Origin: an uncultured Gammaproteobacteria bacterium
Lineage (GTDB): Bacteria > Pseudomonadota > Gammaproteobacteria > Pseudomonadales > Pseudohongiellaceae
Assembly (NCBI GenBank): GCA_913060975.1
Contig: CAJXVC010000012.1
Coordinates: 1 to 64,000 of the forward strand
Reading direction: 5' to 3'
DNA: 64,000 nt
The notes under the pieces were generated by a model. That model searched no databases. It had not been told where the DNA came from and worked only from the letters and a program-made list of their open reading frames with translations. Below are positions 166-39,613 of the stretch, piece after piece; within the stretch, counting starts at the first letter, position 1; every line of letters begins with the position of its first letter. Made by a program: the position numbers and the translations under genes.

Positions 166-1872
166 TCAATCACTGCTATTGATCAATGAAGCATCCGGGC
201 CATCGGCACGTGCTTTAAAGAGAACAGACAGTGCTTCCAGCATGATAAGCAAGGTGGTAATCATAACTGCCACTTCGATGATAACCAGCACCCATTGACC
301 AGCCTGAAAGTGATTGATCAAGTACCACCCGCTCGCCCATAGAGCTGCGAGCAAAATAAACACCATTGGCGCCAGAACATAACGTGCCGGACGTCCCAGT
401 TTCACCAGGAAAACCGCAATAGTCAGCAGTGTCATACTGGCAAGAATCTGGTTAGTCGCACCGAATACTGGCCAGATCAGCATACCGCCATCGCCCAGGT
501 TCTCGTAGTTACTGTTGGTCACACCAAAGGCCAGCGCCAGACAAGCAGCGATAGCTAATAGTGTAGAGAAGATGTTGTTCTTCAGAGGTTCGATATCATA
601 GATATTGCCCCACTCCTGGATGATATAGCGCTGCAGACGCAGGCCGGCATCCATAGTAGTACCAGCAAACAACACAACCATCACAGCCAGCATGGTTTCA
701 GAGAAAGCCAATGAGAATCCCCAACCTTCGTGGATAAGATGGGCTCCGCCTTCAATAAAACCTTCCTGACCTGGGCCAGAAGAAAGACCGGTATAGACAG
801 CGTTCCAATCAGCGCCGCTAGCTGCGTAAAGCGAACCGGTAACAGCAACGATTGTGATCAGCGCCAGCGAGCCTTCACCCAAGGCACCGAGGTAACCAAC
901 AAAGCGCGCGTCTTTTTCGTTATCCAGCTGCTTGGAGCTGGTACCGGAAGACACGATGCCGTGAAAGCCAGACAAAGCACCACAGGCAATGGTCACGAAG
1001 AGTATCGGCCATATCGGCGGCGTCCCTTCTGCGACGCTATTAAAGGCTGGCGCAGTGACGTCCGGCAAAGTAATGAAAACAGCTGAGTAAAGCACCAACA
1101 GACCCAAAACCAACTGCGCACCATTGATGTAGTCGCGTGGTTGCAGCAGCAACCAAACTGGCAGCATGGACGCGATACCTGCGTAAACAAACAGCAAGAT
1201 GATCCAGTTACCATTGGCGCCCAGACCGAAGATGTCGCCGGGTAATGCCAATGGCACTTCACTTCCAACCCAGATTGAAAAATACAGGAGTCCAACGCCG
1301 ATCAGAGAGATCACCAACAGATTGTGCTGGCGGCGAATCAATACGCCGATGCCGATGGCAACCGGAATAGCAACCCAGGCTGGAATCACTGAAGATGGGA
1401 AGATCACCATGTCGGTGGCAATGATCGTGGCGAATACAGCATTCACCAATACCAGCAACAAGAAGATGATCACCATGAACAGGGCGCTGGCACGCTTGCC
1501 AATCAGACTCTCGGAGAGAGCACCGATCGATTTGGCGCCGTGACGATTACTGGCCCATAGCGCGCCCATATCGTGCACGCCTGCGAAAAAGATAGAACCC
1601 AACACTACCCAAAGTACTGCCGGCACCCAACCATAATAGACGGCAGCTGCTGGACCAACGATTGGCGCCGCGCCGGCTACTGCGGTGAAGTGGGCACCCC
1701 AAAGCACAAATTTGTTAGTAGGAACATAGTCGATGCCATCATTAACCCTGTGGGCTGGCGTGACATAGTTCGGATCCAGTCGGTAGATTTTTTCGGCAAT
1801 GAATTTGGAATATACAAACCAGCCGAATGAAAATCCGATCAAACCGAAAACAACGAGAAAGATCGAGGACAT
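166..1872 (-). CDS. cstA: CstA-family carbon starvation / pyruvate-peptide carrier
   Basis: A 568-residue polytopic inner-membrane protein of the CstA family, whose characterised members (CstA, BtsT) import peptides or pyruvate. The N-terminus is hydrophobic (MSSIFLVVFGLIGFSFGW). It is followed by family-typical segments, including 'VPTNKFVLWGAHFTAVAGAAP', and many predicted membrane spans to the C-terminus. The length fits the shorter CstA subfamily rather than the roughly 700-residue E. coli proteins. The start at 1872 has a GGAGAG ribosome-binding site about 7 bases upstream. It is monocistronic with its own terminator. The substrate (pyruvate or small peptides) cannot be fixed from sequence. 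The peptide-degrading enzymes elsewhere in the window make amino-acid or peptide use plausible. Confidence 0.92.
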   Translation of the reverse strand: MSSIFLVVFGLIGFSFGWFVYSKFIAEKIYRLDPNYVTPAHRVNDGIDYVPTNKFVLWGAHFTAVAGAAPIVGPAAAVYYGWVPAVLWVVLGSIFFAGVHDMGALWASNRHGAKSIGALSESLIGKRASALFMVIIFLLLVLVNAVFATIIATDMVIFPSSVIPAWVAIPVAIGIGVLIRRQHNLLVISLIGVGLLYFSIWVGSEVPLALPGDIFGLGANGNWIILLFVYAGIASMLPVWLLLQPRDYINGAQLVLGLLVLYSAVFITLPDVTAPAFNSVAEGTPPIWPILFVTIACGALSGFHGIVSSGTSSKQLDNEKDARFVGYLGALGEGSLALITIVAVTGSLYAASGADWNAVYTGLSSGPGQEGFIEGGAHLIHEGWGFSLAFSETMLAVMVVLFAGTTMDAGLRLQRYIIQEWGNIYDIEPLKNNIFSTLLAIAACLALAFGVTNSNYENLGDGGMLIWPVFGATNQILASMTLLTIAVFLVKLGRPARYVLAPMVFILLAALWASGWYLINHFQAGQWVLVIIEVAVMITTLLIMLEALSVLFKARADGPDASLINSSD

Positions 1873-2069: not shown

Positions 2070-3761
2070 TTACTCGGCGGCGTGATAAGTCCAGTAACCG
2101 ATGAACATCTCATCCCAGCTTTGCAGCCCGAATGTGATGTCCTGACTCGGGTCGGGATTGGCTGGATTATACTGCGAGTTGTCAAAGGTACCCGTCACAT
2201 TGACTTGTGTGCCAGCCGGCAGCATGACCGGTTCAGACAACTGATAAGTCGGCTGCCAGGCGTAGCTGTAATTCGGCACGCTTAACAGATCCTGTGAACG
2301 GCCATCCGGGTATTGCACATTGAACTGCATGTCTTTGCCGCGAAAGTGCATGTGCGCACGCAGACCAGTCACAACGACATTTTCATCGAAGGTGTATTTG
2401 GCAGCGACTTCGTGATTCTGGGCGTGTGCTGGAATGCGGAAATTGGACGCCACAGAACGCGTGAAATTCTCGTGCGCCGGCGGCTCATCGTACATATACA
2501 GGCCCAGCACGGTTTCATCGACAGTTGCCCGACCATTAGTCGTGAAGTGGAACTGCATGGACAACTTGTGGCCTTTTGGAATCAGCACACCAGTGTTTTC
2601 CGGGAAGGTCATGGCATCAACTTTACCCGGGGCATAACCCTCCAGGAAGCGGCGGGCGATAGATCGTGTATCAGCTTCACCGCCGTCGAAATTTTCAGCC
2701 GGCGCGGTGACATAGGTCAGCAAGTGGTGCAGTACTGACTCATCGCCAGCAATGAACTGCACCGACTGCACCCACTTGTCTTCTTCAAATGGCAGTTCGA
2801 CATCGACATTGATGTAGTCCAGAACACCCGTGGCCGGTACTTCCAGAGAAGGGGCCTTGACGATGTAGTCAGGCTCGCCTAACTGCCAACTGCGGCGATC
2901 CTGGAATTCAAGCTCAGTCAGCGGGTCAACAGCTGCAGCGCCGCGCGGGGCTCCAGCGTCAATCCAGTGAACCAGAGTCTGCATGTCGGCTTCAGACATG
3001 TAACTTGCGTTGTCGAAATGACCGATATTTGGATCAACCTGCATAGGCGGCATACGCTTGGTCAGCAAGACTTCGCGAATCATCGGCGACCAGCCTTGCA
3101 ACATCAGATGACTGTCCATAGCGAATGGGCCAATACCACCTTCGCGGTGACAAGAGGCACACTGCTCAGCAATGATAGGCGCCACTTCTTCGGCATAATC
3201 TGGCACTTGCGCCAGATGAGTTTCCTGTACCGGATAGGCGATCTCGCAGCCGCTGGCTGGGGAAATTACAGTCTCTTCCGCACCACCGGCCAATTCAGCT
3301 GTCAGAGTCTCGGCGGCTGCACCATTTAATGGGCCACGGTAAAGCAGGGTCAGGCGCTCAGGATCAAGAATCGCCAATTCACCTACAGCGGCAAATTCCA
3401 GTGTTTCGGCAACCAGCTGGCCATCGTCCAGAAGTACTGGCAAGCCAAACTCAACCGCATCGGCTTGCAGCGCCGCATGTTCAATCTCAGGGCTGACATT
3501 AATCAGGGCGAAGGTGATGCCCTGCTCTTGCCACTGGCCGGCTGTTTGCTTGAAGGCAGCCACCTGTTCGGCGCTGGCAGCACAGCTGGCATCATAGGCC
3601 ATTAACACCATTGCCTGTTGTTGGCGATAGCGGCTCAACTGATGGAATTCACCGCTGCTATCCAGCAAGGCAAAGTCGCCGACACGGTCAGGCAGTGCAT
3701 TGGTTGCTCCGGAGGCAACGAAAGCGAGCAAAATCAGGCCATGACGAATTGGATTGCGCAT
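2070..3761 (-). CDS. Secreted redoxin-like / cytochrome c / PHM-like copper domain protein
   Basis: A 563-residue exported protein in three parts. Residues 1-22 form a signal peptide. Residues about 25-165 form a thioredoxin/redoxin-like domain with only one Cys (C60), so the usual CxxC pair is broken. Residues about 185-275 form a heme-c domain (C201-C204-H205; M237 in an MPP motif is a candidate axial ligand). Residues about 310-560 resemble copper type II ascorbate-dependent monooxygenases (PHM/DBH fold). All expected copper ligands can be placed: H345-H346, H405, H470/H472 and M552 (in DEM). A GGAGAG site lies 6 bases before the ATG. The paralogue at 10268 shares all three parts, and three shorter paralogues at 34860-39613 lack the redoxin part. 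The substrate is unknown. Electron transfer from heme to copper is inferred from the fusion. Confidence 0.85.
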   Translation of the reverse strand: MRNPIRHGLILLAFVASGATNALPDRVGDFALLDSSGEFHQLSRYRQQQAMVLMAYDASCAASAEQVAAFKQTAGQWQEQGITFALINVSPEIEHAALQADAVEFGLPVLLDDGQLVAETLEFAAVGELAILDPERLTLLYRGPLNGAAAETLTAELAGGAEETVISPASGCEIAYPVQETHLAQVPDYAEEVAPIIAEQCASCHREGGIGPFAMDSHLMLQGWSPMIREVLLTKRMPPMQVDPNIGHFDNASYMSEADMQTLVHWIDAGAPRGAAAVDPLTELEFQDRRSWQLGEPDYIVKAPSLEVPATGVLDYINVDVELPFEEDKWVQSVQFIAGDESVLHHLLTYVTAPAENFDGGEADTRSIARRFLEGYAPGKVDAMTFPENTGVLIPKGHKLSMQFHFTTNGRATVDETVLGLYMYDEPPAHENFTRSVASNFRIPAHAQNHEVAAKYTFDENVVVTGLRAHMHFRGKDMQFNVQYPDGRSQDLLSVPNYSYAWQPTYQLSEPVMLPAGTQVNVTGTFDNSQYNPANPDPSQDITFGLQSWDEMFIGYWTYHAAE

Positions 3762-3951: not shown

Positions 3952-5349
3952 TCAGGAAGCCCGATTATCCGCGGTCTTCGCCTTGTTATGATCAAACAAG
4001 GCGATGCTATCGATTAGAGAAAAACGGCGGAACAGCTCATACATGCCCCATACCACTGCCACGATGACGATTGTCATCATGCCCCAGCGCATCAAGCCGG
4101 CGAAAAAGACAGCATCAAATATTGGCATCTGGAACTGATACTGGGACAGCTGATCACCTCTATCCAGCATCCAGTGCCAGGCACTATGGGCCAGCAAGGC
4201 AGACAGCAGAATGGACCCGATGCGCTCCTTAACGAAATACCTGAACAGTATATTCAGCACTGGAATAACCAGCGCCAACACCAGAATCTGCCCCAGCTCC
4301 ACACCAACATTGAACGCCAGCAGCGATGAGAACAGGTGCCCTCCTGCAAACTGCAAGGTATCGCTGAACAGGAATGAAAAGCCAAAGCCATGGATAAGCC
4401 CGAATGCAAAGGTCACCATCCAGCGATGCTCAAGTCTTGCCCCTACTATATTCTCGAACGCCATATAGACGATCGACAACGCAATCAGCGTCTCAATAAG
4501 CGGCGGCCACCAGAGCACGCTGGGTGCCACCCCAAACGCTGAACCGATCAGGGTAATAGAGTGGGCAATAGTAAAGGAGGTGACCACCGGGATCAGGGCG
4601 CGAATGCTGCGCAGCGGAATCACCAGACAAAACAGGAACAACAGGTGATCAGTCCCTTCCAGAATGTGGCCAAAGCCCATGCTGATAAAGCGCAAGGCTG
4701 CCTGATGCCAGCGCGGGTCCAGCTCAACAACTCCGGGATTACCCAGAAAACTAAAAGGGCGCTCGGCACCTGAAGGCAGGATAAAGCGTAAAACAGTAGT
4801 AGTTTCAGACGACAGCGTGCCCAGTTCGGGGCTGACTGAGAAACTCGAGTCTTCGGAAGTAATCGGGTAGGTCACATGAATATCCAGCAAGCCTTGTCGC
4901 CAAAACAGGTCGACGCTGTCATCCAGTGGTGGACTTTGCACGTTAGCCAGAGCTTCTTCAAAGCTGGCAAAAGATCGATTCGAAGGTAGCGATACGCGAG
5001 TTTCAAGCAACTCTTTTTCGGTCAGTTCCTCGCCGTTTTCATAAAAGTGAATCGACTCGGTTATATAGACACGAGCCGCATCGCGAAACTCAAATTCAGC
5101 TTCAGAAATCTGTAAGAAACCGGGCCCACGCAGCGGAAAACTGATTTCGCCCAGTGCCTCCATCGGCACGCGCAAGAGCACGGTGAGCTGATCACCCTCG
5201 GGCTTCACAAAGGCATTTACGGTTATTCGTGACGGAATATCGTGTGCCAACGACTGGCCAGCGAACAGTCCCAGGAAGACCAATAAAGCCAAGCGCTGGC
5301 CGGAGACACGAAAAAGGGTTCGGAATAACGCGTTCATAACTCTCATCAT
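3952..5349 (-). CDS. HupE/UreJ-like membrane protein with large periplasmic N-terminal domain
   Basis: A 465-residue protein. A signal-like segment ends near 'AGQSLAHD', followed by a soluble, presumably periplasmic, domain of about 190 residues. The C-terminal membrane domain (residues about 220-440) carries HupE/UreJ signatures: 'GFGHILEGTDHLLFLF', 'TIAHSITL', 'FGLIHGFGFSFLF' and 'NVGVELGQ'. The repeated in-membrane His and acidic residues are those associated with nickel or other metal permeases. HupE proteins proper are nickel permeases; the long fused version is common in marine proteobacteria and its substrate is unknown. No hydrogenase or urease gene is nearby. It is divergent from the PAL-like gene at 5563, so a link to copper or zinc enzymes is possible but unproven. 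Three in-frame ATGs (5349, 5346, 5337) make the exact start uncertain. Confidence 0.85.
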   Translation of the reverse strand: MMRVMNALFRTLFRVSGQRLALLVFLGLFAGQSLAHDIPSRITVNAFVKPEGDQLTVLLRVPMEALGEISFPLRGPGFLQISEAEFEFRDAARVYITESIHFYENGEELTEKELLETRVSLPSNRSFASFEEALANVQSPPLDDSVDLFWRQGLLDIHVTYPITSEDSSFSVSPELGTLSSETTTVLRFILPSGAERPFSFLGNPGVVELDPRWHQAALRFISMGFGHILEGTDHLLFLFCLVIPLRSIRALIPVVTSFTIAHSITLIGSAFGVAPSVLWWPPLIETLIALSIVYMAFENIVGARLEHRWMVTFAFGLIHGFGFSFLFSDTLQFAGGHLFSSLLAFNVGVELGQILVLALVIPVLNILFRYFVKERIGSILLSALLAHSAWHWMLDRGDQLSQYQFQMPIFDAVFFAGLMRWGMMTIVIVAVVWGMYELFRRFSLIDSIALFDHNKAKTADNRAS

Positions 5350-5562: not shown

Positions 5563-6759
5563 ATGACAAAGATTAAGCTGTTAATAGGCTCCACTCTGGC
5601 AGTCGCCCTTGTGGTTTTGGGAGTAGGCCAGTCTAAATTGCAAGAGCCTAGCATCGCGCAAAGCGACGATGTGATGGCACCGCATTTCCTGGTTGACCCA
5701 TTGTGGCCAAAACCACTACCCAATCACTGGATTACCGGTAACACGATTGGTGTAGACGTAGACGATCGAGACCACATCTTCACCGTTCACCGTAACACTG
5801 AAAACATGTTCGGCGGCCGCACTGAAATCGGTCTGGCAATGGGCGTAGCGGAATGCTGCACACCAGCACCACCAATTCTCGAGTACGATCTGGAAGGTAA
5901 CCTGATCAATGCTTGGGGCGGACCACCTGAAGATGGTTCCTATGTATGGCCTGAATCCAACCACGGTATCGAAGTCGCGCCTAACGGTGACGTCTGGATC
6001 GGTGGTAACGGTGGCCCTGACTCACACGTACTGGTATTCACCCGCGATGGCGAATACATCCGCACAATCGGTAACATCGGCGAGCCAGTTGATAGCAACA
6101 GCACAACTCACTTCGGTCGAGTTGCTGAAATCGCTATCGACCCAAGCGCCGGCGAAGCCTACTTTGCTGATGGTTACACGCACAAGCGTGTTGCTGTTGT
6201 CGACGTAGCTACTGGTGCTTTCAAGCGTTACTGGGGTGCATACGGTACTACTACTATCGACGATGATGCCGACGTAACTTACACACCTGGCGAGCCTGGT
6301 CCACGTCAATTCCGTGGTCCTGTTCACTGTGCCGAGCCTTCAAACGACGGCCTGGTCTACGTTTGTGACCGTGGTGCTGACCGTGTTCAGATCTTCCGTC
6401 CAGACGGTACTTACGTAAGTGAGCACATCTACAACCCAGCCACTCTGGCACAGGGTTCTACATGGGATATCGCGTTCTCACCTGACGAAGACCAGGAATT
6501 CATTTACCTGGCTGACGGTCAGAACTTCAAGGTTTCCATCATTGATCGCGAATCAATGGAAGTGCTTTACACCTTTGGTGACGGTGGTCGACAGCCTGGT
6601 CTGTTCTACGCACCACACAGCATCGCCACTGACTCAGAAGGTAATATTTACACCACTGAGACTTACGAAGGTAAGCGTGTACAGAAATTCCTGTACCAGG
6701 GCATGCGTCCTGTCACAGTTCGCGACCGTGCGCCAACCTGGCCTGCGGATGAACTGTAA
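5563..6759 (+). CDS. PAL-like six-bladed beta-propeller (NHL type), copy 1
   Basis: A 398-residue exported protein: an N-terminal hydrophobic anchor or signal (residues 7-24), then an NHL-type beta-propeller. It matches the layout of the peptidyl-alpha-hydroxyglycine alpha-amidating lyase (PAL) half of PAM. R77 in 'TVHRNTENMF' matches the PAL active-site Arg. H134 ('SNHGIEV'), H255 ('GPVHCAEP') and H352 ('APHSIAT') match the three zinc His. Y205 in 'ADGYTHKRV' matches the catalytic Tyr in PAL's 'SDGYCNSRI'. These matches are from memory of the human sequence. An AGGAG site lies ahead of the ATG. The gene ends at a strong terminator, so it is transcribed separately from its paralogue at 7009. 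PAL cleaves alpha-hydroxyglycine adducts to amide plus glyoxylate; that activity here is inference. Confidence 0.85.
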   Translation: MTKIKLLIGSTLAVALVVLGVGQSKLQEPSIAQSDDVMAPHFLVDPLWPKPLPNHWITGNTIGVDVDDRDHIFTVHRNTENMFGGRTEIGLAMGVAECCTPAPPILEYDLEGNLINAWGGPPEDGSYVWPESNHGIEVAPNGDVWIGGNGGPDSHVLVFTRDGEYIRTIGNIGEPVDSNSTTHFGRVAEIAIDPSAGEAYFADGYTHKRVAVVDVATGAFKRYWGAYGTTTIDDDADVTYTPGEPGPRQFRGPVHCAEPSNDGLVYVCDRGADRVQIFRPDGTYVSEHIYNPATLAQGSTWDIAFSPDEDQEFIYLADGQNFKVSIIDRESMEVLYTFGDGGRQPGLFYAPHSIATDSEGNIYTTETYEGKRVQKFLYQGMRPVTVRDRAPTWPADEL

Positions 6760-6785
6760 GCTAACTTAAGCTTTACACGCCTACA

Positions 6786-6821
6786 AAAAAAAGCCGTGTC
6801 GAATTCGACACGGCTTTTTTT
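6786..6821 (+). terminator. Intrinsic terminator after PAL-like copy 1
   Basis: A palindrome centred on GAATTC with GCCGTGTC/GACACGGC arms, flanked by A and T runs, so it could work in both directions. Confidence 0.85.
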
Positions 6822-7008
6822 ATGCCTGCAATTTAATAGTCGAAGCAGGCCCTGCCATTGCTTTTGACGCCACCCTGACGCAGACCGAATCGCCAGAGCA
6901 ATACTGGCTTTCAGTTAGCCACTTCCCGGCATTTCCCTAATACGAACATCAGTGCTACCTTCGCTATTGAAGTAGTCCTTTCAATAATAAAACCCAAGGG
7001 AATCGACT

Positions 7009-8196
7009 ATGACTATTGCTCGAAAACCTCTCGTCTTCACCGCTTCCGCTCTTGCCCTGTTTGCCGCCCTTTACGTCGGGCAGGCACAACTAGGTGATAC
7101 CAGCAACGCCGCCAGCAGCGATCGCATGGCACCGCATTTCGTGGTTGACCCTTACTGGCCGCAACCACTCCCGAACAAATGGCTGCTCGGCCGCACCATT
7201 GGTATTGCAGTCGATGCCCGCGACCACCTCTATGTGGTCCATCGCGATCAGGACAATATGTTTATGAACCAGGAGCTTGGGCTCGACCTCGGCCGTGCCG
7301 AATGTTGCACCGCAGCACCACCTATTCTCGAATTCGACAAGGAAGGTAATCTCATCAATGCCTGGGGCGGCCCGGGCGAAGGCTATACCTGGCCGGAATC
7401 CAATCACGGCATTGAAGTAGCGCCTGATGGCAATGTCTGGATCGGCGGTAATGGCAGTTCCGACTCGCATGTATTGGTATTCACTCGCGAGGGTGAATTC
7501 GTTCGCGAAATTGGTATACCTGGCGAGCCTATCGACAGCCTGAGTACCACTTCGTTCGGACGTGTAGCAGAGATCGCCATTGATCCGGCAGCCAACGAGG
7601 CTTATCTGGCAGATGGTTACGGCAACAAGCGAGTGGCTGTTGTCGATGTCGCCACCGGCGCTTTCAAGCGATTCTGGGGAGCCTATGGAAATGAGCCCGT
7701 CGATGAACGTGTCATCTACGACCCGAATGAGCCTTTGCCACAACAGTTCGTTGGCCCGGTGCACTGCGCTGAACCTTCCAACGACGGCCTGATTTACGTA
7801 TGCGACCGGGGCGCTGATCGTATTCAAGTGTTTCGGCCCGATGGCACTTTTGTGAAAGAGGGACAAGTGGCTCCGCTCACCCTTGCCGGTTCAACCTGGG
7901 ATATCGCCTTTTCTCGTGATGATGATCAGGAATTTATCTTTGTCGCTGATGGTGCCAACTTCAAAGTCCACATACTCGATCGCGACACGCTGGAAGTGTT
8001 AGCCGAATTCGGCGATGGCGGGCGTCAGCCCGGATTGTTTTTTGGCACACACAGTCTGGTGACCGATTCAGACAACAATATCTACACAACGGAAACCTAT
8101 GAAGGCAAACGTATTCAGAAGTTTGTATACCAAGGCTTGCGACCATTGAGCGAGCACAGTGTCGGTGCGCCTTGGCCGGCAGGTGAGATCCATTGA
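7009..8196 (+). CDS. PAL-like six-bladed beta-propeller (NHL type), copy 2
   Basis: A 395-residue paralogue of the preceding propeller, collinear over its whole length. The N-terminal hydrophobic segment (residues about 8-27) directs export. The same five PAL-type residues are present: R79 ('VVHRDQDN'), H133 ('SNHGIEV'), Y204 ('ADGYGNKRV'), H252 ('GPVHCAEP') and H348 ('GTHSLVT'). An adjacent Cys pair at 99-100 ('AECCTA') occurs in both copies and could form a disulfide. An AAGGGA site lies about 8 bases before the ATG. Nucleotide divergence from copy 1 is clear throughout, so the duplication is not recent. Two copies may serve different substrates or conditions. The family is otherwise annotated only as 6-bladed propeller or NHL repeat protein. 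Confidence 0.85.
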   Translation: MTIARKPLVFTASALALFAALYVGQAQLGDTSNAASSDRMAPHFVVDPYWPQPLPNKWLLGRTIGIAVDARDHLYVVHRDQDNMFMNQELGLDLGRAECCTAAPPILEFDKEGNLINAWGGPGEGYTWPESNHGIEVAPDGNVWIGGNGSSDSHVLVFTREGEFVREIGIPGEPIDSLSTTSFGRVAEIAIDPAANEAYLADGYGNKRVAVVDVATGAFKRFWGAYGNEPVDERVIYDPNEPLPQQFVGPVHCAEPSNDGLIYVCDRGADRIQVFRPDGTFVKEGQVAPLTLAGSTWDIAFSRDDDQEFIFVADGANFKVHILDRDTLEVLAEFGDGGRQPGLFFGTHSLVTDSDNNIYTTETYEGKRIQKFVYQGLRPLSEHSVGAPWPAGEIH

Positions 8197-8298: not shown

Positions 8299-8436
8299 GT
8301 CATTTTTTGTTACCGCAAGCAGGAAACTGGCGTTACTGACTGTGTTTGTCGTTCAGCTAATTTTCAGAAACTTGAACGTACTATGGATGTCAATTATTCT
8401 CCAGCGTCGATAAAAATTACGCGATAAGGATTGCCC

Positions 8437-8985
8437 ATGAATATCAAGAAAATAGTTGCTACCGCCGCATTGATGATGGTGGCGTTGAACACTCAGGCTC
8501 AGCAGGAAGTCGAAGTCGGTTACTCCTACGACGGCAATGCCAATCTCAGCAGCATCCAGCATAGTTTACGTATTGCTGAATTTGCCGATGAGCGTCAAGG
8601 CGTAGAACCAGCCTTGATTGCGAATCTCGATGCCGATTACATCGGCGAAGCACCGTTGGTGGACCTGGTCCGAGACGCTTTCGTGCAGCTATTCAGCAAA
8701 GGTGGCGCCGAAGTGGTCGATTCCGGCGAAGGGATGGTAGTCGCTGGTACGATTAACAGCGCGCAGGCGGAAATCGTGGATCGCTCCGGTGTCGAAACTA
8801 TTCAGCTCACTATTCGCACGCAGATCCAACTACAAGACGGTGGTCGCACAATTTACGAAACGACGCTGTTTGGTCGTGGCCGCGCTCCTGCTTCGGAAGG
8901 TATGGCAGCAGCAGCTCGCGCCTCATTGGATCGTATGGTGAATGATCTGGCTCGAGATAACTACTTCATGATCGAACTGGAATAG
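8437..8985 (+). CDS. Secreted protein of unknown function
   Basis: A 182-residue protein. The ATG at 8437 is preferred over an upstream TTG at 8431 because AAGGA sits 6 bases before it. A signal peptide ends at 'LNTQAQQ'; there is no lipobox Cys. The mature part alternates predicted strands and helices ('GMVVAGTINSAQAEIVDRSG', 'IQLTIRTQIQLQDG') and ends 'MVNDLARDNYFMIELE'. This recalls the YajG-type lipoprotein fold, but the similarity is weak and I assign no function. It lies alone between a terminator and a convergent nuclease-like gene only 10 bases away. Confidence 0.75.
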   Translation: MNIKKIVATAALMMVALNTQAQQEVEVGYSYDGNANLSSIQHSLRIAEFADERQGVEPALIANLDADYIGEAPLVDLVRDAFVQLFSKGGAEVVDSGEGMVVAGTINSAQAEIVDRSGVETIQLTIRTQIQLQDGGRTIYETTLFGRGRAPASEGMAAAARASLDRMVNDLARDNYFMIELE

Positions 8986-8995
8986 CCCGGCTCAC

Positions 8996-9799
8996 TCAGA
9001 AACAGCCCAGATCTTCGGACAGGGATTCGTCCAGGCTGCGGTTGAGTTCAGGGAAGAACTGCAAACCAGTTAGTTGCTCCAATTCTGCTACAGTCGTTTG
9101 CAAATTGCAGTGATGCATGCCGACAGAATTGTCCTGCTGGAATTGAAACGCAGCACTTTTGCCTTCCGGTGTGATGACAATCTTGAAAAAACCATCTGGC
9201 ACCCGATGCTCTGCTGACACTGGCAGATGCAGCGCCTCGCTCTCCGGGTTGAAGATCGGCCCGGTCAATACGAACAACACCTGCTGGCGATTTACGAGAT
9301 TCCTGGTCGCCCACTCCAATCCATACCAGGCACCCTGACTGAGACTGTTGCTGCGCGCGACCGCATTGGTCAGATAGTTCACTTCTTGCCAATAAGGGGT
9401 GCCGGCAAAGTTCACCAACGGTACATATTGCGCACGCAGTAAACCGATTTCTTCTGCTTGCGCAAAATCCTCGACACTCAAAGTGTCTGCCACGTAATTG
9501 TCAGCTACCGGTTGTCGGGACAAGCTGGAGGCAATGCCGACAGACCCCGCGGTCACTTGATAGGCAGCCCATTCTGCTGTCTTGATTTCGGTGTTATAGG
9601 ACAGCGCATAAATGGAACGCAGAATCAGATGGTTGTCCTCATCAGCCCCGATTGGACAGCCAGCGAAACAGTGCACAATACGCAGATCCTGCGCTTGTGT
9701 CGGCGGGATCACTCCCCAGAGCAGCAGACCCAACAGGCACAGCGCCAGAAACCGGTTCGATGACCTAACCTGCCCAATCTGGATATTAAGAATATTCAA
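8996..9799 (-). CDS. DNA/RNA non-specific endonuclease-like protein, probably inactive
   Basis: A secreted protein of the NUC1/Serratia nuclease family. After a signal segment ('FLALCLLGLLLWGVIPPTQAQ') the family layout is visible. The catalytic DRGH motif reads 'LRAQYVP' (the general-base His is Gln). The metal-binding motif, normally ending NxGxW, reads 'TNAVARSNSLSQGAW' (the Asn ligand is Ser). The C-terminal 'VLTGPIF' and 'VPDGFFKIV' blocks are recognisable. The fold is therefore supported but nuclease activity is doubtful. The start is uncertain: a TTG at 9799 with AGGAGAG upstream fits the signal peptide best. An ATG at 9841 and a longer frame to 9940 are in phase but lack a good ribosome-binding site. 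Confidence 0.75.
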   Translation of the reverse strand: MNILNIQIGQVRSSNRFLALCLLGLLLWGVIPPTQAQDLRIVHCFAGCPIGADEDNHLILRSIYALSYNTEIKTAEWAAYQVTAGSVGIASSLSRQPVADNYVADTLSVEDFAQAEEIGLLRAQYVPLVNFAGTPYWQEVNYLTNAVARSNSLSQGAWYGLEWATRNLVNRQQVLFVLTGPIFNPESEALHLPVSAEHRVPDGFFKIVITPEGKSAAFQFQQDNSVGMHHCNLQTTVAELEQLTGLQFFPELNRSLDESLSEDLGCF

Positions 9800-10267
9800 T
9801 GACTCACTCTCCTGCGCAACACTGTCTCCAGGCGCTTGCATACTAATTATTGCAACACATCGGCTGCCCTGCTGATTATTTGGACGAATAGGTGCTGCCA
9901 ACCCGCGCGTCATTTTTCCCCAAAACCCGGGCTCTCGCAACTGGCCCGCTCGACGTTGGTCGGCTATTAACGCAATTGGTCTTGCCTACCTCGTTTGCGG
10001 TCGAGTCATCGTTCTGACTTCCGTTATTTTGAGCAATTACTTCTGTCTGCATCCCATATCTATGGCTGAGACAACTATCCCGGAATTCGAGTCTGGTCGG
10101 AGAAGTGGGCGCCCTGGCAGTATTATGGCCGGAATTCCCTGCACAAAAACTCAAAAAGTTGCGCATTCGAGTTTTCAGGAAGCTTATTTTGCGTTTACTC
10201 CCTATGATTGGCGACCGTTATCGATGCAAGTTCTGTTTTCGCCCAGGCGATGACAAAGGAGCACTCA
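9800..10267. other. Divergent intergenic region
   Basis: About 470 bases between the nuclease-like gene (minus) and the redoxin-cytochrome-PHM-like gene (plus). Small open frames occur on both strands but have no ribosome-binding site or recognisable product. It presumably holds both promoters. I see no repeat or RNA structure. Confidence 0.5.
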
Positions 10268-12010
10268 ATGTTACAGCGTATGAAATGTTCTAAATTGGCT
10301 TCCAGTCTCCTGCTATGTGGAGCACTGGGTCTCCACATTCAGGCTGCGCAGGCAGCCGAACGCATCAGTGATTTTTCCCTGATCGATCACCATGGTGAAT
10401 TCTTCCAGTTGAGCCGTGAGACCAACAGCGAAGCTATTGTATTAATGACTTATGCGGATAGCCGCGATGTGCGGCGCGCAATTGATGATCTGGACGATCT
10501 GGTTGAGCAGTTTGCCGATCAGGATGTCGCCTTTTATCTGATCGATGCATCCGGTGAGAGCGATAAAGACGTTATCGCCGAACAAGCCGATGATGACATT
10601 GCTTACCCTATTTTAGTAGACGACACACAGTTTGTTGCCAAAGAACTGGGGCTTACTCGTCAGACTGACGTGGTGATTCTGGATCCTGCCAATATGGAAG
10701 TCGTCTTCCGAGGTGCACTGAACAATCGTTTTGAGGAAGGCAGCCGGGCGCGCCGCGCATCTGAACACTATGTGGCCGACGCCCTGAACAGCATTCTTGC
10801 TGGGTCTGCCATCGCAGCACCGCAAGTGGCCAGCAAAGGCGATGTGCTGGATTTCAGCCTGCGCGAATCAACAGTCGAGTCACTCTCCTATGCCGAAGAT
10901 ATCGCGCCGATTCTGGAAGAGCGTTGTGTGAGTTGTCACATGGAAGGTGGTATCGCTCCGTTTGCCATGACCAACCATCAAATGGTTCGCGGTTGGTCGC
11001 CAATGATTCGCGAAGTCCTGTATACCAAACGTATGCCACCCGGTCAGATTGATCCAGACTATGTCGATGATTTCTATGACGTCGCACATATCACCACGGA
11101 AGAGACCCAAAAGTTGATTGCCTGGATCGATGCTGGCGCACAGAACGAATCGGATAGCGACCCACTCGCCAAACTGCGCCCTACAGCGGAAAAATGGAGC
11201 TATGGTGAACCTGACATGGTGATCGATGTGCCTACTCAGGAAATACCCGCCACCGGCGTACAGGATTACCGTAATCTGATGGTGCCCTTGAATCTGGACA
11301 AAGATGTCTGGGTAAAGGCTGTCGAATTCGAAGCAGGCGACACGACTGTGTTGCACCACATCATTGCTTTCGCCTACGGCCCGAATGGCGTCAGCGAATT
11401 TGATATTCTGAATCAGGGTATCGGCCTCGGTGCTTATGCACCAGGCAATGAAGTAAATACTTACCCGGAAAATTCTGGTTTCCCGCTTAAAGCTGGCGGC
11501 GGTTTGATGTTGCAAATGCATTACACCACCTCAGGTAAAGAGGCCACGGACAGCTCGCAAGTCGCCTTATACCTGTGGGATGAAGAGCCCGAGCGCCAAG
11601 TCAGGGGCGGTTCTGCTGGCGAGCTGGATATCAACGTCGCACCTTTTGAGCGTCGTCACGAAATGCTGGCAACTGCCAAGTTCCGACAGGATTCTTATCT
11701 GTCCATGCTTGGTCCACACATGCATTACCGGGGCTATGACGCTAATTTCGTTCTGCGCTACCCGGATGGTCGTGAAGAAGAAATCCTGAATGTGCCCAAC
11801 TACCAATTCAATTGGCAGAAAGTGTACGATTTCAAAGAACCGATGTTCGTACCGGCTGGCAGTGAACTCGTGTTTACCGGCACATTCGATAACTCGGAAA
11901 CCAATCCGTTCAACCCCGATCCATCACAAACGCTTTCATGGGGGGAACAAACCTGGCAGGAAATGTTCTTCGGTTTCTACCGATTCGTAGAAGCTGGAGA
12001 CGGTGAATAG
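10268..12010 (+). CDS. Secreted redoxin-like / cytochrome c / PHM-like copper domain protein, paralogue
   Basis: A 580-residue protein. The ATG at 10268 has AAAGGAG 6 bases upstream and gives a clean signal peptide ending near 'IQAAQAAE'. It has the same layout as the protein at 2070-3761. The redoxin-like domain (residues about 32-180) has lost both active-site Cys ('TYADSRDV'). The heme-c domain has C220-C223-H224 and an MPP Met at 256. The PHM/DBH-like copper domain has H363-H364, H418, H484/H486 and M566 ('WQEMFFGF'). The redoxin fold therefore cannot act as a normal thiol oxidoreductase and may be structural. Copper and heme sites look complete. The gene ends at a strong terminator and is not in an operon. 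The substrate is unknown. Confidence 0.85.
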   Translation: MLQRMKCSKLASSLLLCGALGLHIQAAQAAERISDFSLIDHHGEFFQLSRETNSEAIVLMTYADSRDVRRAIDDLDDLVEQFADQDVAFYLIDASGESDKDVIAEQADDDIAYPILVDDTQFVAKELGLTRQTDVVILDPANMEVVFRGALNNRFEEGSRARRASEHYVADALNSILAGSAIAAPQVASKGDVLDFSLRESTVESLSYAEDIAPILEERCVSCHMEGGIAPFAMTNHQMVRGWSPMIREVLYTKRMPPGQIDPDYVDDFYDVAHITTEETQKLIAWIDAGAQNESDSDPLAKLRPTAEKWSYGEPDMVIDVPTQEIPATGVQDYRNLMVPLNLDKDVWVKAVEFEAGDTTVLHHIIAFAYGPNGVSEFDILNQGIGLGAYAPGNEVNTYPENSGFPLKAGGGLMLQMHYTTSGKEATDSSQVALYLWDEEPERQVRGGSAGELDINVAPFERRHEMLATAKFRQDSYLSMLGPHMHYRGYDANFVLRYPDGREEEILNVPNYQFNWQKVYDFKEPMFVPAGSELVFTGTFDNSETNPFNPDPSQTLSWGEQTWQEMFFGFYRFVEAGDGE

Positions 12011-33227: not shown

Positions 33228-33669
33228 ATCAGATAGCTAACTGCATGAATGTCCGCGACAGGCCTGACGGACGGGACAACCTGGAATACCGCTAACCCGG
33301 CGAGAAAACCGGGTAGCAATGGGAGGCGCAAGCATAACAAACATTCCGGCAATGGACCTTGTCTGACACAGGTTGCACCAACATTCAGCCAGCCTGCCAC
33401 CCCACCCCCCGAACAATACCCCTGACGAGAGTTAATCCAACACCTTCCTCACTATCGCTAAAACTGTAACATTTTGTAAAAAAACAACGACATAAAGGCA
33501 CTGTTTAGGCCTTGCAGTAACTGGACGGCAGGGAGATTGCCGTTTATCCTAGCCACCCTGCGAAATTACATTCAACTGAATAAAAACATAATCTATCGCA
33601 GACGCCCATGCGGCGATCGAACAGATGGGATACTGGATTTCATCGAAATTGTATTTGGAGAGCTTCTCA
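33228..33669. other. Divergent intergenic region
   Basis: About 440 bases between the MFS gene and a secreted-protein gene. A small hairpin (ACCCGG/CCGGGT, 33295-33314) lies near the MFS start. An AT-rich stretch at 33460-33495 may hold the plus-strand promoter. No gene is supported. Confidence 0.45.
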
Positions 33670-34859: not shown

Positions 34860-36212
34860 ATGAAAGCAGTGCGTAAGTCTGGAGCCTTGCTTGGTAGCGC
34901 AATCGCGTTAACCATGAGCGCAGGAGCTCAAGCACAACAAGAAGAAATTACTTATAACAGCCACGTTGCTGACATCATCAATGAGAATTGTGTGGTCTGT
35001 CACCGCGAAGGTGGCGTCGGTCCCATGCAGTTCGAAAACTATGATCAGGTTCGTCCGTGGGCACCGCTAATTTCCATGAAAGTCGCTAATCGCGAAATGC
35101 CTCCATACGCCTATGACCAGCACATCGGTATTCAGGATCTGGAAGGCGACTGGCGTTTGTCGCAAGACGAAATCGACACAGTTGTAGCCTGGGTTAATCA
35201 GGGCTCGCCAATGGGCGACGCTGACATCGTGGTCGAGCAGCCATCCTTCCCGGCTCCCGATGACTGGACATTCGCGTCCATGTTCGGCCAGCCAGACAAA
35301 ATCGTTGCTTCTTCTCCTTACGACATTCCCGCTAACGGCAATGACCTGTGGAGCAAGGAATTCGTTGACCCGCAAATGACTTCAGACCGCTGCATCAAGG
35401 CAGTTCAGGTCAAGCCACGTGGCGATGCTCGCGCGGTTGTTCACCACGCTAACTCTGACGTATACCTGCCAGACGCCAATGGCGAATTGCAGCAGTCAGG
35501 TCAGCTGACTGAATACGCCATGGGTAAATGGGGCGAAGTGATGCCGGAAGGCGTATGTCGCACATTGCCAGCTGGCGCCATGGTTCGTTGGGACATTCAC
35601 ATGTTCCCAGGCGGCGTAGGCGCAACTGCTGAAGGCGGCATGATCAAAGACAACGTTGTTGAGATCGGTCTGTGGTTCCACGACGAAGATTTCGCTGAGC
35701 AAGCTGGTATTTACGAGCAGGATCTGCGTCTTTATGGCCTTCGCGAAGGTTATGAGAACGGCAACCTGATCGTACCTCCTCATGGTTACGCCATGACTCA
35801 GGGCTTCCACAGCTTTGATCACCCAGTACGTATCGACAGCTTCCAGCCACACGGTCACCTGCGCATGAATGCAGCGTCACTGGAAGTCTTCGATCCCAAG
35901 ACTGGCCGCACTACACCAGTGAGCCAGATCTCCAACTGGAGTGCTACTTGGCACCACAGCCACATCTACGACGCCGATGCCGCGCCTCTGCTGGCACCAG
36001 GACAAGTTCTGGTTATCAAGCAGTGGTACGACAACACAGCGTCTAACCCGAACAACCCTGATCCCGATCAGTGGGTGTACGGTGGCAGCCGCACAGGTGA
36101 CGAGATGTCTCACGCCTGGATTGCTGTGACTCACCTTGACCAGGAAGGCTACGAGAAGATCGTTGCCGAGCGCGAAGAAAAAGCGCAACGCTCTCTGGCT
36201 GGTAACGACTAA
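34860..36212 (+). CDS. Exported cytochrome c / PHM-like copper protein, tandem copy 1
   Basis: A 450-residue protein with a signal peptide ending 'SAGAQAQQ' and a heme-c domain with C44-C47-H48 ('ENCVVCHREGG') and the candidate axial Met80 in MPPYAY. A long domain follows with the full PHM/DBH copper-ligand pattern: H195-H196 ('AVVHHANSD'), H247 ('DIHMFP'), H331/H333 ('QPHGHLRM') and M416 ('GDEMSHAW'). There is no redoxin domain, unlike the paralogues at 2070 and 10268. An extra His cluster 'TWHHSHIY' is conserved in all three tandem copies. GAGGAG precedes the ATG. The gene is followed by its own terminator. It probably oxidises a C-H bond next to nitrogen or a similar group in the periplasm; the substrate is unknown. 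Confidence 0.87.
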   Translation: MKAVRKSGALLGSAIALTMSAGAQAQQEEITYNSHVADIINENCVVCHREGGVGPMQFENYDQVRPWAPLISMKVANREMPPYAYDQHIGIQDLEGDWRLSQDEIDTVVAWVNQGSPMGDADIVVEQPSFPAPDDWTFASMFGQPDKIVASSPYDIPANGNDLWSKEFVDPQMTSDRCIKAVQVKPRGDARAVVHHANSDVYLPDANGELQQSGQLTEYAMGKWGEVMPEGVCRTLPAGAMVRWDIHMFPGGVGATAEGGMIKDNVVEIGLWFHDEDFAEQAGIYEQDLRLYGLREGYENGNLIVPPHGYAMTQGFHSFDHPVRIDSFQPHGHLRMNAASLEVFDPKTGRTTPVSQISNWSATWHHSHIYDADAAPLLAPGQVLVIKQWYDNTASNPNNPDPDQWVYGGSRTGDEMSHAWIAVTHLDQEGYEKIVAEREEKAQRSLAGND

Positions 36213-36245
36213 GACGTCGCTGTCAGACTAGTAAGCAAGAATAAG

Positions 36246-36277
36246 AAGGCCGGTTGGGCAACCAACCGGCCTTTTTT
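36246..36277 (+). terminator. Intrinsic terminator after tandem copy 1
   Basis: 12-bp stem (AAGGCCGGTTGG and its complement), GCAA loop, then T6. Confidence 0.9.
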
Positions 36278-36455
36278 ATGCGCATTCGAAACTGCTGTAT
36301 CCCTTATCTCCTACCCTTCAGAAAACCACATTTATGGCGGCATCTATATCCACGTAATCTGTGTGGGTAAGACTTGAAAAATCCAGAATTAGTCTTAGAA
36401 TTTAACTGTGACAGTTAAATTTTAGTGCCCGTCACAACAATTCAGGGAGAAGACT

Positions 36456-37808
36456 ATGAGTAAAGTAAGTCACACAATTCCTGTCTTATCCGGAGCGCTG
36501 CTTGCACTGGCAGTTAACAGTGCCAACGCTCAGGAAGAGGAAATCACGTACAACAGCCATGTGGCTGATATCATCAATGAGAATTGTGTGGTCTGTCACC
36601 GCGAAGGCGGCATTGGCCCCATGCAATTCGAATCCTATGATCAGGTTCGCCCATGGGCCCCGCTGATTCAGCTAAAAGTGGCTAATCGCGAAATGCCCCC
36701 GTATGCCTATGACCAGCATATCGGTATTCAGGATCTGGAAGGCGACTGGCGTCTGGCACAGGACGAAATCGACACGATTGTCGCCTGGGTAAATCAGGGC
36801 TCACCATTGGGTGATGCTGATATCGTGCCTGAGCAGCCCCAATTTCCAGATCCGAATGACTGGACGTTCGCCTCCATGTTCGGTGCGCCTGACAAGATTA
36901 TTCCTTCTTCACCCTATGACATTCCGGCCAACGGTAATGACTTGTGGAGCAAGGAATTCGTTGACCCACAAATGACCCAGGACCGCTGTATCAAGGCAGT
37001 TCAGGTTAAACCACGTGGCGATGCTCGCGCGGTTGTTCACCACGCCAACTCTGACGTATACCTGCCAGACGCCAATGGCGAATTGCAGCAGTCAGGTCAA
37101 CTGACTGAATACGCCATGGGGAAATGGGGCGAAGTGATGCCGGAAGGCGTATGCCGCACATTGCCAGCTGGCGCCATGGTTCGTTGGGACATTCACATGT
37201 TCCCAGGCGGCGTAGGCGCAACTGCTGAAGGCGGCATGATCAAGGACAACGTTGTTGAGATCGGACTGTGGTTCCACGACGAAGGTTTCGCTGAGCAAGA
37301 AGGTATTTACGAGCAAGACTTGCGTCTCTATACCCTGCGTGAAGGTTATGAGAATGGTGAGTTGATCGTACCTCCTCATGGTTACGCCATGACTCAGGGC
37401 TTTCACAGCTTCGACCATCCGGTGCGTATCGACAGCTTCCAGCCCCACGGCCACTTGCGTATGAATGCCGCGTCGTTGGAGATTTTCGACCCGAAGACCG
37501 GCCGCACAACGCCTGTGAGCCAGATCTCCAACTGGAGCGCCACATGGCACCACAGCCACATCTACGATGAAGATGTCGCTCCATTATTGGCACCGGGTCA
37601 GGTTCTGGTAATCAAGCAGTGGTATGACAACACGGCTGACAACCCGAACAACCCTGATCCCGATCAGTGGGTATACGGTGGTAGCCGAACCGGTGACGAA
37701 ATGTCCCACGCGTGGATCGCGGTGACTCACCTCGACCAGGAAGGCTATGAAAAGCTGCTGGCCGAGCGTGAAGAACGCGAGCAACGCACACTGGCTGGTA
37801 GCGACTAG
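36456..37808 (+). CDS. Exported cytochrome c / PHM-like copper protein, tandem copy 2
   Basis: A 450-residue protein, gap-free with copy 1 from residue 28 onward and nearly identical to it. All heme residues (C44, C47, H48, M80) and copper ligands (H195-H196, H247, H331/H333, M416) are the same. The signal peptide differs ('IPVLSGALLALAVNSANAQ'), and synonymous differences are scattered in the first and last thirds. The stretch 37013-37305 is almost identical in DNA to 35419-35711 of copy 1, which suggests gene conversion. A GGGAGAAG site precedes the ATG and a terminator follows. Differences such as 'EQAGIY'/'EQEGIY' are conservative, so the same substrate is likely. Confidence 0.87.
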   Translation: MSKVSHTIPVLSGALLALAVNSANAQEEEITYNSHVADIINENCVVCHREGGIGPMQFESYDQVRPWAPLIQLKVANREMPPYAYDQHIGIQDLEGDWRLAQDEIDTIVAWVNQGSPLGDADIVPEQPQFPDPNDWTFASMFGAPDKIIPSSPYDIPANGNDLWSKEFVDPQMTQDRCIKAVQVKPRGDARAVVHHANSDVYLPDANGELQQSGQLTEYAMGKWGEVMPEGVCRTLPAGAMVRWDIHMFPGGVGATAEGGMIKDNVVEIGLWFHDEGFAEQEGIYEQDLRLYTLREGYENGELIVPPHGYAMTQGFHSFDHPVRIDSFQPHGHLRMNAASLEIFDPKTGRTTPVSQISNWSATWHHSHIYDEDVAPLLAPGQVLVIKQWYDNTADNPNNPDPDQWVYGGSRTGDEMSHAWIAVTHLDQEGYEKLLAEREEREQRTLAGSD

Positions 37809-37840
37809 TACTCGTCAACTCAGCCTGAATCCCAGGTGCA

Positions 37841-37877
37841 GCCGGTTAGTCCTGATTCAGGACTAGCCGGCTTTTTA
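37841..37877 (+). terminator. Intrinsic terminator after tandem copy 2
   Basis: 14-bp stem (GCCGGTTAGTCCTG with one G-T pair), 3-base loop, then T5. Confidence 0.85.
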
Positions 37878-37894
37878 CTTATACCCTCTGATTT

Positions 37895-37965
37895 GGGCCC
37901 TCTTAATTGTGCCCTCTCAATTGTGCCCCTCTCAATTGTGCCCTCTCAATTGTGCCCTCTCCCCC
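37895..37965. repeat. Short direct repeat array, five units of 14-15 bp
   Basis: Unit GTGCCCTCTCAATT in five head-to-tail copies: 37895, 37909, 37923 (one extra C), 37938 and 37952 (last one degenerate). It lies between the terminator of copy 2 and the promoter region of copy 3. The units are too short and close for CRISPR and have no spacers. Confidence 0.85.
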
Positions 37966-38275
37966 GTGAAGTGAATTCCGCAAAGTTGTACCGCTGTCAT
38001 CGATGCAATCGCAACAGGCAATAATTCCGGTCAGAACCCCCGACTCATCGCTTTCCTAACACCATTAGCATGAAAATCATTGACCCCCACAATTAGCAAG
38101 TACTTACTTACTCAAGAACAGTGATAATAACTGGGGGCAGCTAAAAACCCGTCAATCTCACTCTTTTATGCGGCAATGCACTTTAGATGGGCGCTTTTCA
38201 GGAGTACACTTTTAAGCTGCTACACCAAATTTTCCGTTTGTCGATCCAAATACATAATGAATAAAGGAGAGCAAA

Positions 38276-39613
38276 ATGAAACTAGCAAAACTCGGCCTGG
38301 CCGGTATTGCGTTGGTCGGCGCCCAACAAGGGCTGGCACAAGAAGCCGACGAACTGGCCTATCACGGTGAAATAGGCCGGATTCTCAATGAGAATTGCGT
38401 GGTCTGCCATCAGGAAGGTGGAATCGGGCCCATGGCATTCCAATCCTACGAACAGGTACGTCCCTGGGCGCCTTTGATTCAGATGAAGGTCCGCAACAAG
38501 GAAATGCCTCCCTACGCCTATGACGAACATATCGGGGTTCAGGATCTGGTTGGTGACTGGCGCCTGAGCCAGGATGAGATCGACAAGATTGTCGCCTGGG
38601 TTGATAGCGGTTCGCCAATGGGTGACCTGGAAAACGCTGTGGCTGCGCCCGAGCTACGCGACCCTAGCGAGTGGAATTTTGCCGCTGAGTTGGGCCAGCC
38701 TGACTTGATCGTACCTTCCTCCTCATACGATATTCCAGCCAGTGGTAATGACCTGTGGAGCAACGAATTTGTTGATCCACAAATGACCGCCTCACGATGC
38801 ATCAAGGCAGTTCAGGTTAAACCACGCGGCGACGCAGCGGCTGTTGTCCACCATGCCAATTCCAGCGTGTGGATGGAGAACGAAGCGACCGGCGAGTTGG
38901 AACGCTATGGCATGCTGACTGAATACGCGATGGGTAAATGGGGCGAAATGGTCCCTGATGGTGTTTGCCGCACGCTGCCCGCCGGCGCCCAGGTCCAGTG
39001 GAGCATTCACATGTTCCCAGGGGGTGTTGGCGCCACTGCTCCAGGCACCATGATCGAAGACAACGTGGTTGAAATTGGCCTGTGGTTCCACGACGAGGAA
39101 TACACTGAAGCCAACGACGTCTATGAGCAGGATCTGGCTTTGTATCGCATTAGCCAACAGGGCGACCTTATTATTCCGCCCAATGGCTATCAAATGACGC
39201 AGGGTTTCCACACTTTTGATCACCCTGTGCGTATTGACAGCTTTCAACCCCACGGTCACTTGCGCATGAATGCAGCGTCTCTGGAAATCTTCTACCCGGA
39301 AACTGGTCGCACAGTCCCGGTGAGCCAGATCTCCAATTGGAGCGCTACCTGGCACCACAGCCACATTTATGAGCCTGACGAAGCACCACTGGTACCAGCC
39401 GGTGCAGTACTGGTAATGAAGCAGTGGTACGACAACACGTCTGCTAACCCTAACAATCCTGATCCGGATCAGTGGGTAGTCGGCGGCAGCCGAACTGGCG
39501 ATGAGATGACCCACGCCTGGCTAGCCATTACTCACCTTGATGAGGAAGGCTATGAAGAGTTGGTCGCCGAGCGTGAAGCTCGCGCACAACGCTCTCTGGC
39601 TGGTAGCGACTAG
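38276..39613 (+). CDS. Exported cytochrome c / PHM-like copper protein, tandem copy 3
   Basis: A 445-residue protein, the most divergent of the three tandem copies. The signal peptide is short ('LGLAGIALVGAQQGLAQ'). Heme motif C41-C44-H45 with Met77. Copper ligands H192-H193, H245 ('SIHMFP'), H326/H328 ('QPHGHLRM') and M411 ('GDEMTHAW'). It differs from copies 1 and 2 around residues 115-150 and 195-215, which may shape a different substrate pocket. AAGGAGAG precedes the ATG. The upstream region (37880-38275) holds the 14-bp repeat array and separates it from copy 2, so it probably has its own promoter. Confidence 0.87.
   Translation: MKLAKLGLAGIALVGAQQGLAQEADELAYHGEIGRILNENCVVCHQEGGIGPMAFQSYEQVRPWAPLIQMKVRNKEMPPYAYDEHIGVQDLVGDWRLSQDEIDKIVAWVDSGSPMGDLENAVAAPELRDPSEWNFAAELGQPDLIVPSSSYDIPASGNDLWSNEFVDPQMTASRCIKAVQVKPRGDAAAVVHHANSSVWMENEATGELERYGMLTEYAMGKWGEMVPDGVCRTLPAGAQVQWSIHMFPGGVGATAPGTMIEDNVVEIGLWFHDEEYTEANDVYEQDLALYRISQQGDLIIPPNGYQMTQGFHTFDHPVRIDSFQPHGHLRMNAASLEIFYPETGRTVPVSQISNWSATWHHSHIYEPDEAPLVPAGAVLVMKQWYDNTSANPNNPDPDQWVVGGSRTGDEMTHAWLAITHLDEEGYEELVAEREARAQRSLAGSD

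Follow-up and report, generated by a model that had tools for sequence, protein, structure and literature searches.

PAL-like propellers beside a PHM-like copper protein in a gammaproteobacterial gene block: a candidate bacterial variant of PHM–PAL chemistry

PAL is the lyase half of PAM and finishes the amidation of peptide hormones in animals. Amidation in two steps has been reported from animals and from green algae (PMC5461114, PMC6919629), and the main text of a review (PMC6529398) includes no word starting with bacteri-, prokaryot- or archaea. Do bacteria have a chemistry of this kind? The question is raised by a stretch of gammaproteobacterial DNA of 64,000 nucleotides, referred to as the window throughout, which encodes two neighbouring propellers resembling PAL (A and B) and five copper proteins resembling PHM (Table 1). 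A variant of PHM–PAL chemistry in bacteria is our best reading of this locus, one that we hold with evenly divided confidence.

A literature search covering titles and the starts of abstracts returned no publication on a bacterial PHM–PAL pair, and a search for named bacterial forms of amidation gave only papers on other subjects. In GenBank, a lyase name is already attached to one distant relative that is 26% identical to A, so the existence of PAL-like proteins in bacteria is in itself no novelty; among the 14 plasmid matches, one carries the lyase name, seven are called 'hypothetical protein' and six have no listed gene. What is new, as far as our searches go, is the match of residues on both halves, the conserved gene block and the fused redox parts. 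With two PAL-like propellers encoded close to a copper enzyme that would fit the initial hydroxylation, a bacterial version of amidation chemistry becomes testable. Such a bacterial pair would allow the lyase and the two-copper hydroxylase to be studied separately, would reveal how a hydroxylase of this type is reduced free of ascorbate, could yield tools for peptide amidation, and bears on the origin of PAM.

Table 1. Features of the window discussed in the text (locus counts refer to the best 80 of 276 loci)
Feature	Position	Strand	Remarks
CstA-like carrier	166..1872	-	same strand as PHM1; 250 bits against a cut-off of 1188; 44 of 80 best loci
PHM1	2070..3761	-	thioredoxin-like domain ~22-180; CxxCH (C201, C204, H205); PHM-like dicopper domain ~294-563
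HupE/UreJ_2 membrane protein	3952..5349	-	between PHM1 and A; 65 of 80 best loci
PAL-like propeller A	5563..6759	+	398 aa; N-terminus judged signal-like by eye; R77, H134, Y205, H255, R270, H352
PAL-like propeller B	7009..8196	+	395 aa; R79, H133, Y204, H252, R267, H348
Small protein, sub-threshold LptE match	8431..8985	+	53 of 80 best loci
DNA/RNA non-specific endonuclease	8996..9940	-	52 of 80 best loci
PHM2	10208..12010	+	built like PHM1 (AhpC-TSA domain, CxxCH, PHM-like part); Gly/Phe for Arg/Tyr; 43 of 80 best loci
PHM3-PHM5	34860..39613	+	three in tandem (34860-36212, 36456-37808, 38276-39613); CxxCH and dicopper part; Gln/Trp at the Arg/Tyr places

Active-site residues and predicted fold of A and B

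The Arg, the three His and the Tyr that a first-pass annotation of the window had named are present in the ORF translations of both propellers, which are 67% identical to each other, and the numbering that it gave for A is correct, with the equivalents in B as listed in Table 1. Its proposed match to PAL was borne out by a MAFFT alignment of PAL, ten A/B-family sequences and eight further propellers, in which A77, 134, 205, 255, 270 and 352 align with R533, H585, Y654, H690, R706 and H786 of rat PAL at all six positions. For residues 185-293 of PAL, which contain H690 and R706, this alignment uses a presumed sequence that fills the gap exactly (109/109). A profile alignment to PAL gave a weaker result, as R533, H585, Y654 and R706 were matched, H690 was one column off, and H786 was left unaligned; in the HMMER alignment, the Arg, the blade-2 His and the Tyr of B pair with the PAL chain. 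Each of the three His residues of A stands eight residues ahead of a hairpin glycine (HGIEVAPNG, HCAEPSNDG, HSIATDSEG), and in PAL the spacing is equal on blades 2 and 6 but longer by one residue on blade 4; on this basis, the MAFFT column for H690 was taken as right.

By MAFFT, H134, H255 and H352 thus match H585, H690 and H786, which we take to be the zinc ligands of PAL, the profile alignment having missed two of them. The counterparts of Tyr654, Arg533 and Arg706, whose roles in PAL we likewise assume, are Y205, R77 and R270; a literature search on PAL active-site residues found neither these residues nor their roles. Three further PAL residues, Met784, Asp787 (presumably a calcium ligand) and Cys655 (presumably in a disulfide), are not kept, since A has Ala350, Ser353 and Thr206 at these places in the MAFFT alignment, and we accordingly class A as PAL-like and not as PAL proper.

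The Arg, the three His and the Tyr are invariant in 19/19, 36/36 and 10/10 aligned sequences, down to 37% identity, and all six residues including the second Arg are invariant in 36/36 and 10/10 aligned sequences, each of these counts taking in A and B themselves. A Cys-Cys pair (C98-C99) is also invariant in the family (alignments of 36 and 10). It may be asked whether A and B keep this metal site for a different reaction, a hydrolysis or a biosynthetic step, as an NHL protein of cyanobacteria, ScyF, may do. In Pfam, NHL alone passes its cut-off and the SGL and Lactonase models match below theirs, while ScyF (NF035926) is the best NCBIfam match, at 79.8 bits for A and 65.2 bits for B against a cut-off of 350, which places neither protein in the ScyF family. 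These matches and the invariant C98-C99 pair would be in line with such a role; however, both Arg residues and the Tyr are kept together with the three His, which is beyond the needs of a metal site alone, and we regard a different reaction as improbable.

The predicted model of A (pLDDT 83.5, pTM 0.82) consists of six four-stranded blades, as counted from the listed strands. The three His (H134, H255 and H352) share one register on blades 2, 4 and 6, each standing second in the opening strand of its blade, and R77 and Y205 come directly or nearly after strand 2 of blades 1 and 3, respectively, positions that would place them on the same face as the three His. The structure prediction that the first-pass annotation had suggested as a check is thus in agreement, for A, with a PAL-like site within a six-bladed fold, which is supported at the level of the model.

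A Foldseek search with this model returned rat PAL at rank 1 (E 2.1e-17), and PAL was also top by Z in VIA-align (32.2; 294 residues, 2.7 Å), although tied with TRIM71/Lin41 and Thin at 31.3 to 32.0. With the family profile, Thin scored higher (78.5 bits) than PAL (47.3 bits), and Thin, which has no His at its blade-2 and blade-6 positions, is the best PDB sequence match. Whole-sequence similarity was consequently rejected as proof of PAL membership, because other NHL domains score equal or higher. The modelled fold favours PAL without singling it out; it is the residues that single it out. The tie in fold score with the TRIM71 and Thin NHL domains would also suit non-enzymatic propellers, which serve in binding or as a scaffold and whose His cluster is structural. 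Against this, six polar residues predicted to share a face do not vary among sequences down to 37% identity, and other propellers from the same loci change some of them, so that we judge a purely structural role to be very unlikely.

As a control, 147 propeller ORFs from the loci examined, with exact duplicates alone removed, were aligned by profile. The complete R-H-Y-H-R-H set was found in 126, three have one unread residue, and one is truncated; it is complete in 0/17 lower-scoring NHL ORFs, at least three of which are fragments of others and several of which are without one end. For these 17, the expectation that generic NHL proteins lack the set held. His occupies the Tyr place in 14 of them, and Glu or nothing stands at the blade-6 place in 15; MAFFT on seven of the 17 gave Glu at the blade-6 place in six, and a seventh with three His, both Arg and Leu for Tyr.

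Four sister NHL propellers (L134:9383-10519, L133:12399-13679, L135:6850-7983 and L120:14438-15412) keep both Arg and the His of blades 2 and 4, while His replaces the Tyr and Glu replaces the blade-6 His. Judging from these exchanges, they may perhaps be lyases of another type, whose metal site is altered. The L134 propeller adjoins a PHM3-like gene. A further propeller (L133:10856-12007) has both Arg and all three His, with Leu instead of Tyr.

PHM1 and the gene block around A and B

Five PHM-like proteins were counted in the window by the first-pass annotation, and all five are there (Table 1). CxxCH is present in each, and the six copper ligands (five His, one Met), matched to PHM by motif, are invariant among them; Pfam finds an AhpC-TSA domain in PHM1 and PHM2. 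The predicted model of PHM1 (pLDDT 83.3) matches PHM over residues 294-563 (Z ~21) and thioredoxin-like proteins over residues ~22-180 (Z ~18). A phmmer search with the second half of PHM1 against the PDB gave zero matches at E <= 10, and the link to PHM thus rests on the fold, the motifs and a below-cut-off Pfam match. PHM1 is assigned to the PHM fold by its model and by its copper ligands, H345, H346, H405, H470, H472 and M552, by motif.

Within this fold, PHM1 sides with PHM rather than with DBH, having an Arg two residues before HxH (R468) and a Tyr four residues after the Met (Y556). We take R240 and Y318 of PHM to be the corresponding Arg/Tyr pair that holds the glycine carboxylate of the substrate; a literature search found neither these residues nor their roles. 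The presence of Gln410 in DBH is documented in PMC3197665. We presume that this Gln takes the place of PHM R240, in which case PHM3-PHM5, with Gln at the Arg place, resemble DBH there.

The Arg/Tyr pair is found in 43/44 PHM1-type ORFs of at least 55% identity (the other is without that end) and in 29/31 more distant ones, which are mostly a second copy. PHM2-type ORFs have it in 0/43 readable cases, with Gly/Phe in 43/45 and two unread, and Gln/Trp is seen in most readable ORFs of the PHM3-5 types; copies from the window itself may have entered these figures two times. Within this genome, the pair occurs in 1/17 distinct PHM-like proteins read, namely PHM1, several of the distant ones having an unclear Met motif. 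The proposal that all five PHM-like proteins could work with A and B was narrowed accordingly: a partnership is plausible for PHM1, which keeps Arg and Tyr, and was rejected for the other four, which are without the pair. PHM3-PHM5 are probably a separate system.

Two observations on the wider set of copper proteins were made on the side. The 17 PHM-like proteins, encoded in a genome of 3.76 Mb, show six different residues two positions before HxH (R, G, Q, T, M and E). Some PHM1-like paralogues (L167, L173, L175 and L169) keep Arg and Tyr and carry Arg and Asn for two CuM His (RARMN); since both CuM His are replaced, they are probably inactive or altered.

PHM1 lies one gene from A. Genome contigs were scanned for further loci, and the best 80 of 276, whose products reach 89% identity to A, belong to Gammaproteobacteria, several being titled Pseudohongiella, OM182 or SAR86. 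In addition to the neighbours in Table 1, these 80 loci include an amidohydrolase (45), PHM1 (43), PHM2 (43), B (34) and GGT (22), as counted by tblastn at E <= 1e-20 over at least half of the query, with many of the loci ending at contig ends. The gene block recurs in relatives. Among loci with at least 8 kb upstream, an R-type PHM, meaning one with the Arg/Tyr pair, is found upstream in 36/50 and is absent from 14, and where 8 kb is available on either side, some PHM-like gene occurs in 31/35 loci. Most of the loci are orthologous to one another, and the counts are therefore not independent events.

Next to third-copy PALs, PHM-like genes were found in 7/20 loci, of which one, L152, represents part of the main block and three others, L153, L154 and L160, are apparently orthologous; this was set aside as too weak. 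A protein without a Pfam match (33625-34611) is located near PHM3/4/5-like genes in the window and also at L092, L093, L133, L134, L144, L153, L154, L158 and L160.

Reading by eye of the DNA between A and B (6760-7008) revealed a palindrome with a run of T directly behind it, which a hairpin scan requiring a loop did not list. This arrangement suggests separate transcription, and an operon of A and B is doubtful.

Co-occurrence of PAL-like and PHM-like genes

Of the 99 family genomes, 71 carry close-type PAL, defined by E <= 1e-120 (a threshold chosen after viewing the table), and 80 carry PHM-like genes; 71/71 genomes with close-type PAL have both. PHM-like genes are found in 9/28 family genomes without close-type PAL, both are missing from one genus with 11 genomes, and the two occur together in only 5 genera of the family. 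The Arg and Tyr places were read in 30 of the best PHM1-like matches from seven genomes. In G435 and G443, intact R-type PHM and PAL are 3.1 to 5.7 kb apart, while in G468 the sole intact R-type copy read sits 1.77 Mb from the PALs, for which reason confinement of R-type PHM to the PAL locus was rejected. R-type residues were found in 0/12 PHM1-like matches read, the best-scoring of 38, in three genomes of the genus g216 (G419, G425, G430), which have close-type PAL, and R-type with both CuM His in 0/4 read, of 7 PHM1-like matches, in G475.

In a broader set of 398 Proteobacteria, PAL-like proteins (E <= 1e-30) occur in 15 and PHM-like proteins (E <= 1e-10) in 3, and the window's genome alone has both. 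The other 14 PAL-like genomes are without PHM-like matches, so that the PAL signature by itself is no proof of amidation and was rejected as proof of a pathway. A PHM match was found at 0/11 distant PAL-like loci (L122-L132, 20 kb each), and no common theme was apparent by eye from the first residues of the neighbours at ten distant PAL-like loci, of which two belong to this genome. Some of these PAL-like proteins (L122-L128) are ~46% identical to A, come from other proteobacterial classes and have no PHM match nearby; relatives at ~45% identity are also carried on Methylobacterium plasmids.

This distribution bears on the possibility that A and B are PAL-type zinc propeller lyases acting on some other hemiaminal or alpha-hydroxy-N substrate, independently of PHM1, with the neighbourhood reflecting common regulation only. 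Such an independence would account for the full signature in genomes without PHM-like matches, for the distant loci devoid of a PHM match and for the three g216 genomes, whose close-type PAL is accompanied by no R-type PHM among the copies read. For one hemiaminal, N-(hydroxymethyl)guanidine, a lyase is known from bacteria, and its sequence is unrelated to PAL (PMC12508155). It is set against this that all 71 family genomes with close-type PAL also carry PHM-like genes and that R-type PHM lies upstream in most of the loci with sufficient flanking DNA (36/50). We consider a substrate independent of PHM1 possible, yet would not expect it.

Proposed reaction and comparison with known systems

The reading that we prefer is that A and B are periplasmic zinc lyases working like animal PAL, with PHM1 supplying the hydroxylated intermediate, and we think the chances for and against it to be balanced. 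It builds on sequence, conservation, predicted folds, neighbourhood and co-occurrence. In the periplasm, PHM1 would hydroxylate an acyl or peptidyl compound that ends in glycine, at the alpha carbon, and its electrons would arrive via CxxCH, which probably binds haem c, and the thioredoxin-like parts, both plausible replacements for ascorbate. A or B, using zinc, Tyr and Arg, would then break the N-C bond of the N-acyl- or peptidyl-alpha-hydroxyglycine, giving an amide and glyoxylate. In genomes without R-type PHM, another PHM-like protein, or none, may serve. In this scheme, we infer the zinc, the haem, the reaction, the substrate, the cell location and the order of steps.

As to its purpose, GGT and the CstA-like carrier close by lead us to a weak guess, that the system might scavenge small glycine-ended peptides or N-acyl-glycines. 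A bolder version is put forward only tentatively: bacteria would possess a full amidation pathway for peptides or acyl-glycines, its steps divided among individual periplasmic proteins and ascorbate replaced by haem-c and thioredoxin-like parts, and this pathway may have given rise to eukaryotic PAM or have been exchanged with it.

Compared with known systems, A has in common with PAL the predicted six-bladed propeller and the counterparts of R533, H585, Y654, H690, R706 and H786, whereas the two are only ~20% identical, A and B are separate bacterial proteins, and the bacterial family has an invariant Cys-Cys pair. ScyF, an NHL protein of scytonemin biosynthesis, is the top NCBIfam match for A and B and stays far under its cut-off. 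PHM1 shares with PHM and DBH the predicted fold over residues 294-563 and the copper ligands by motif, and with PHM the Arg/Tyr pair; in contrast to both, it carries an extra thioredoxin-like domain and CxxCH, at ~16% identity.
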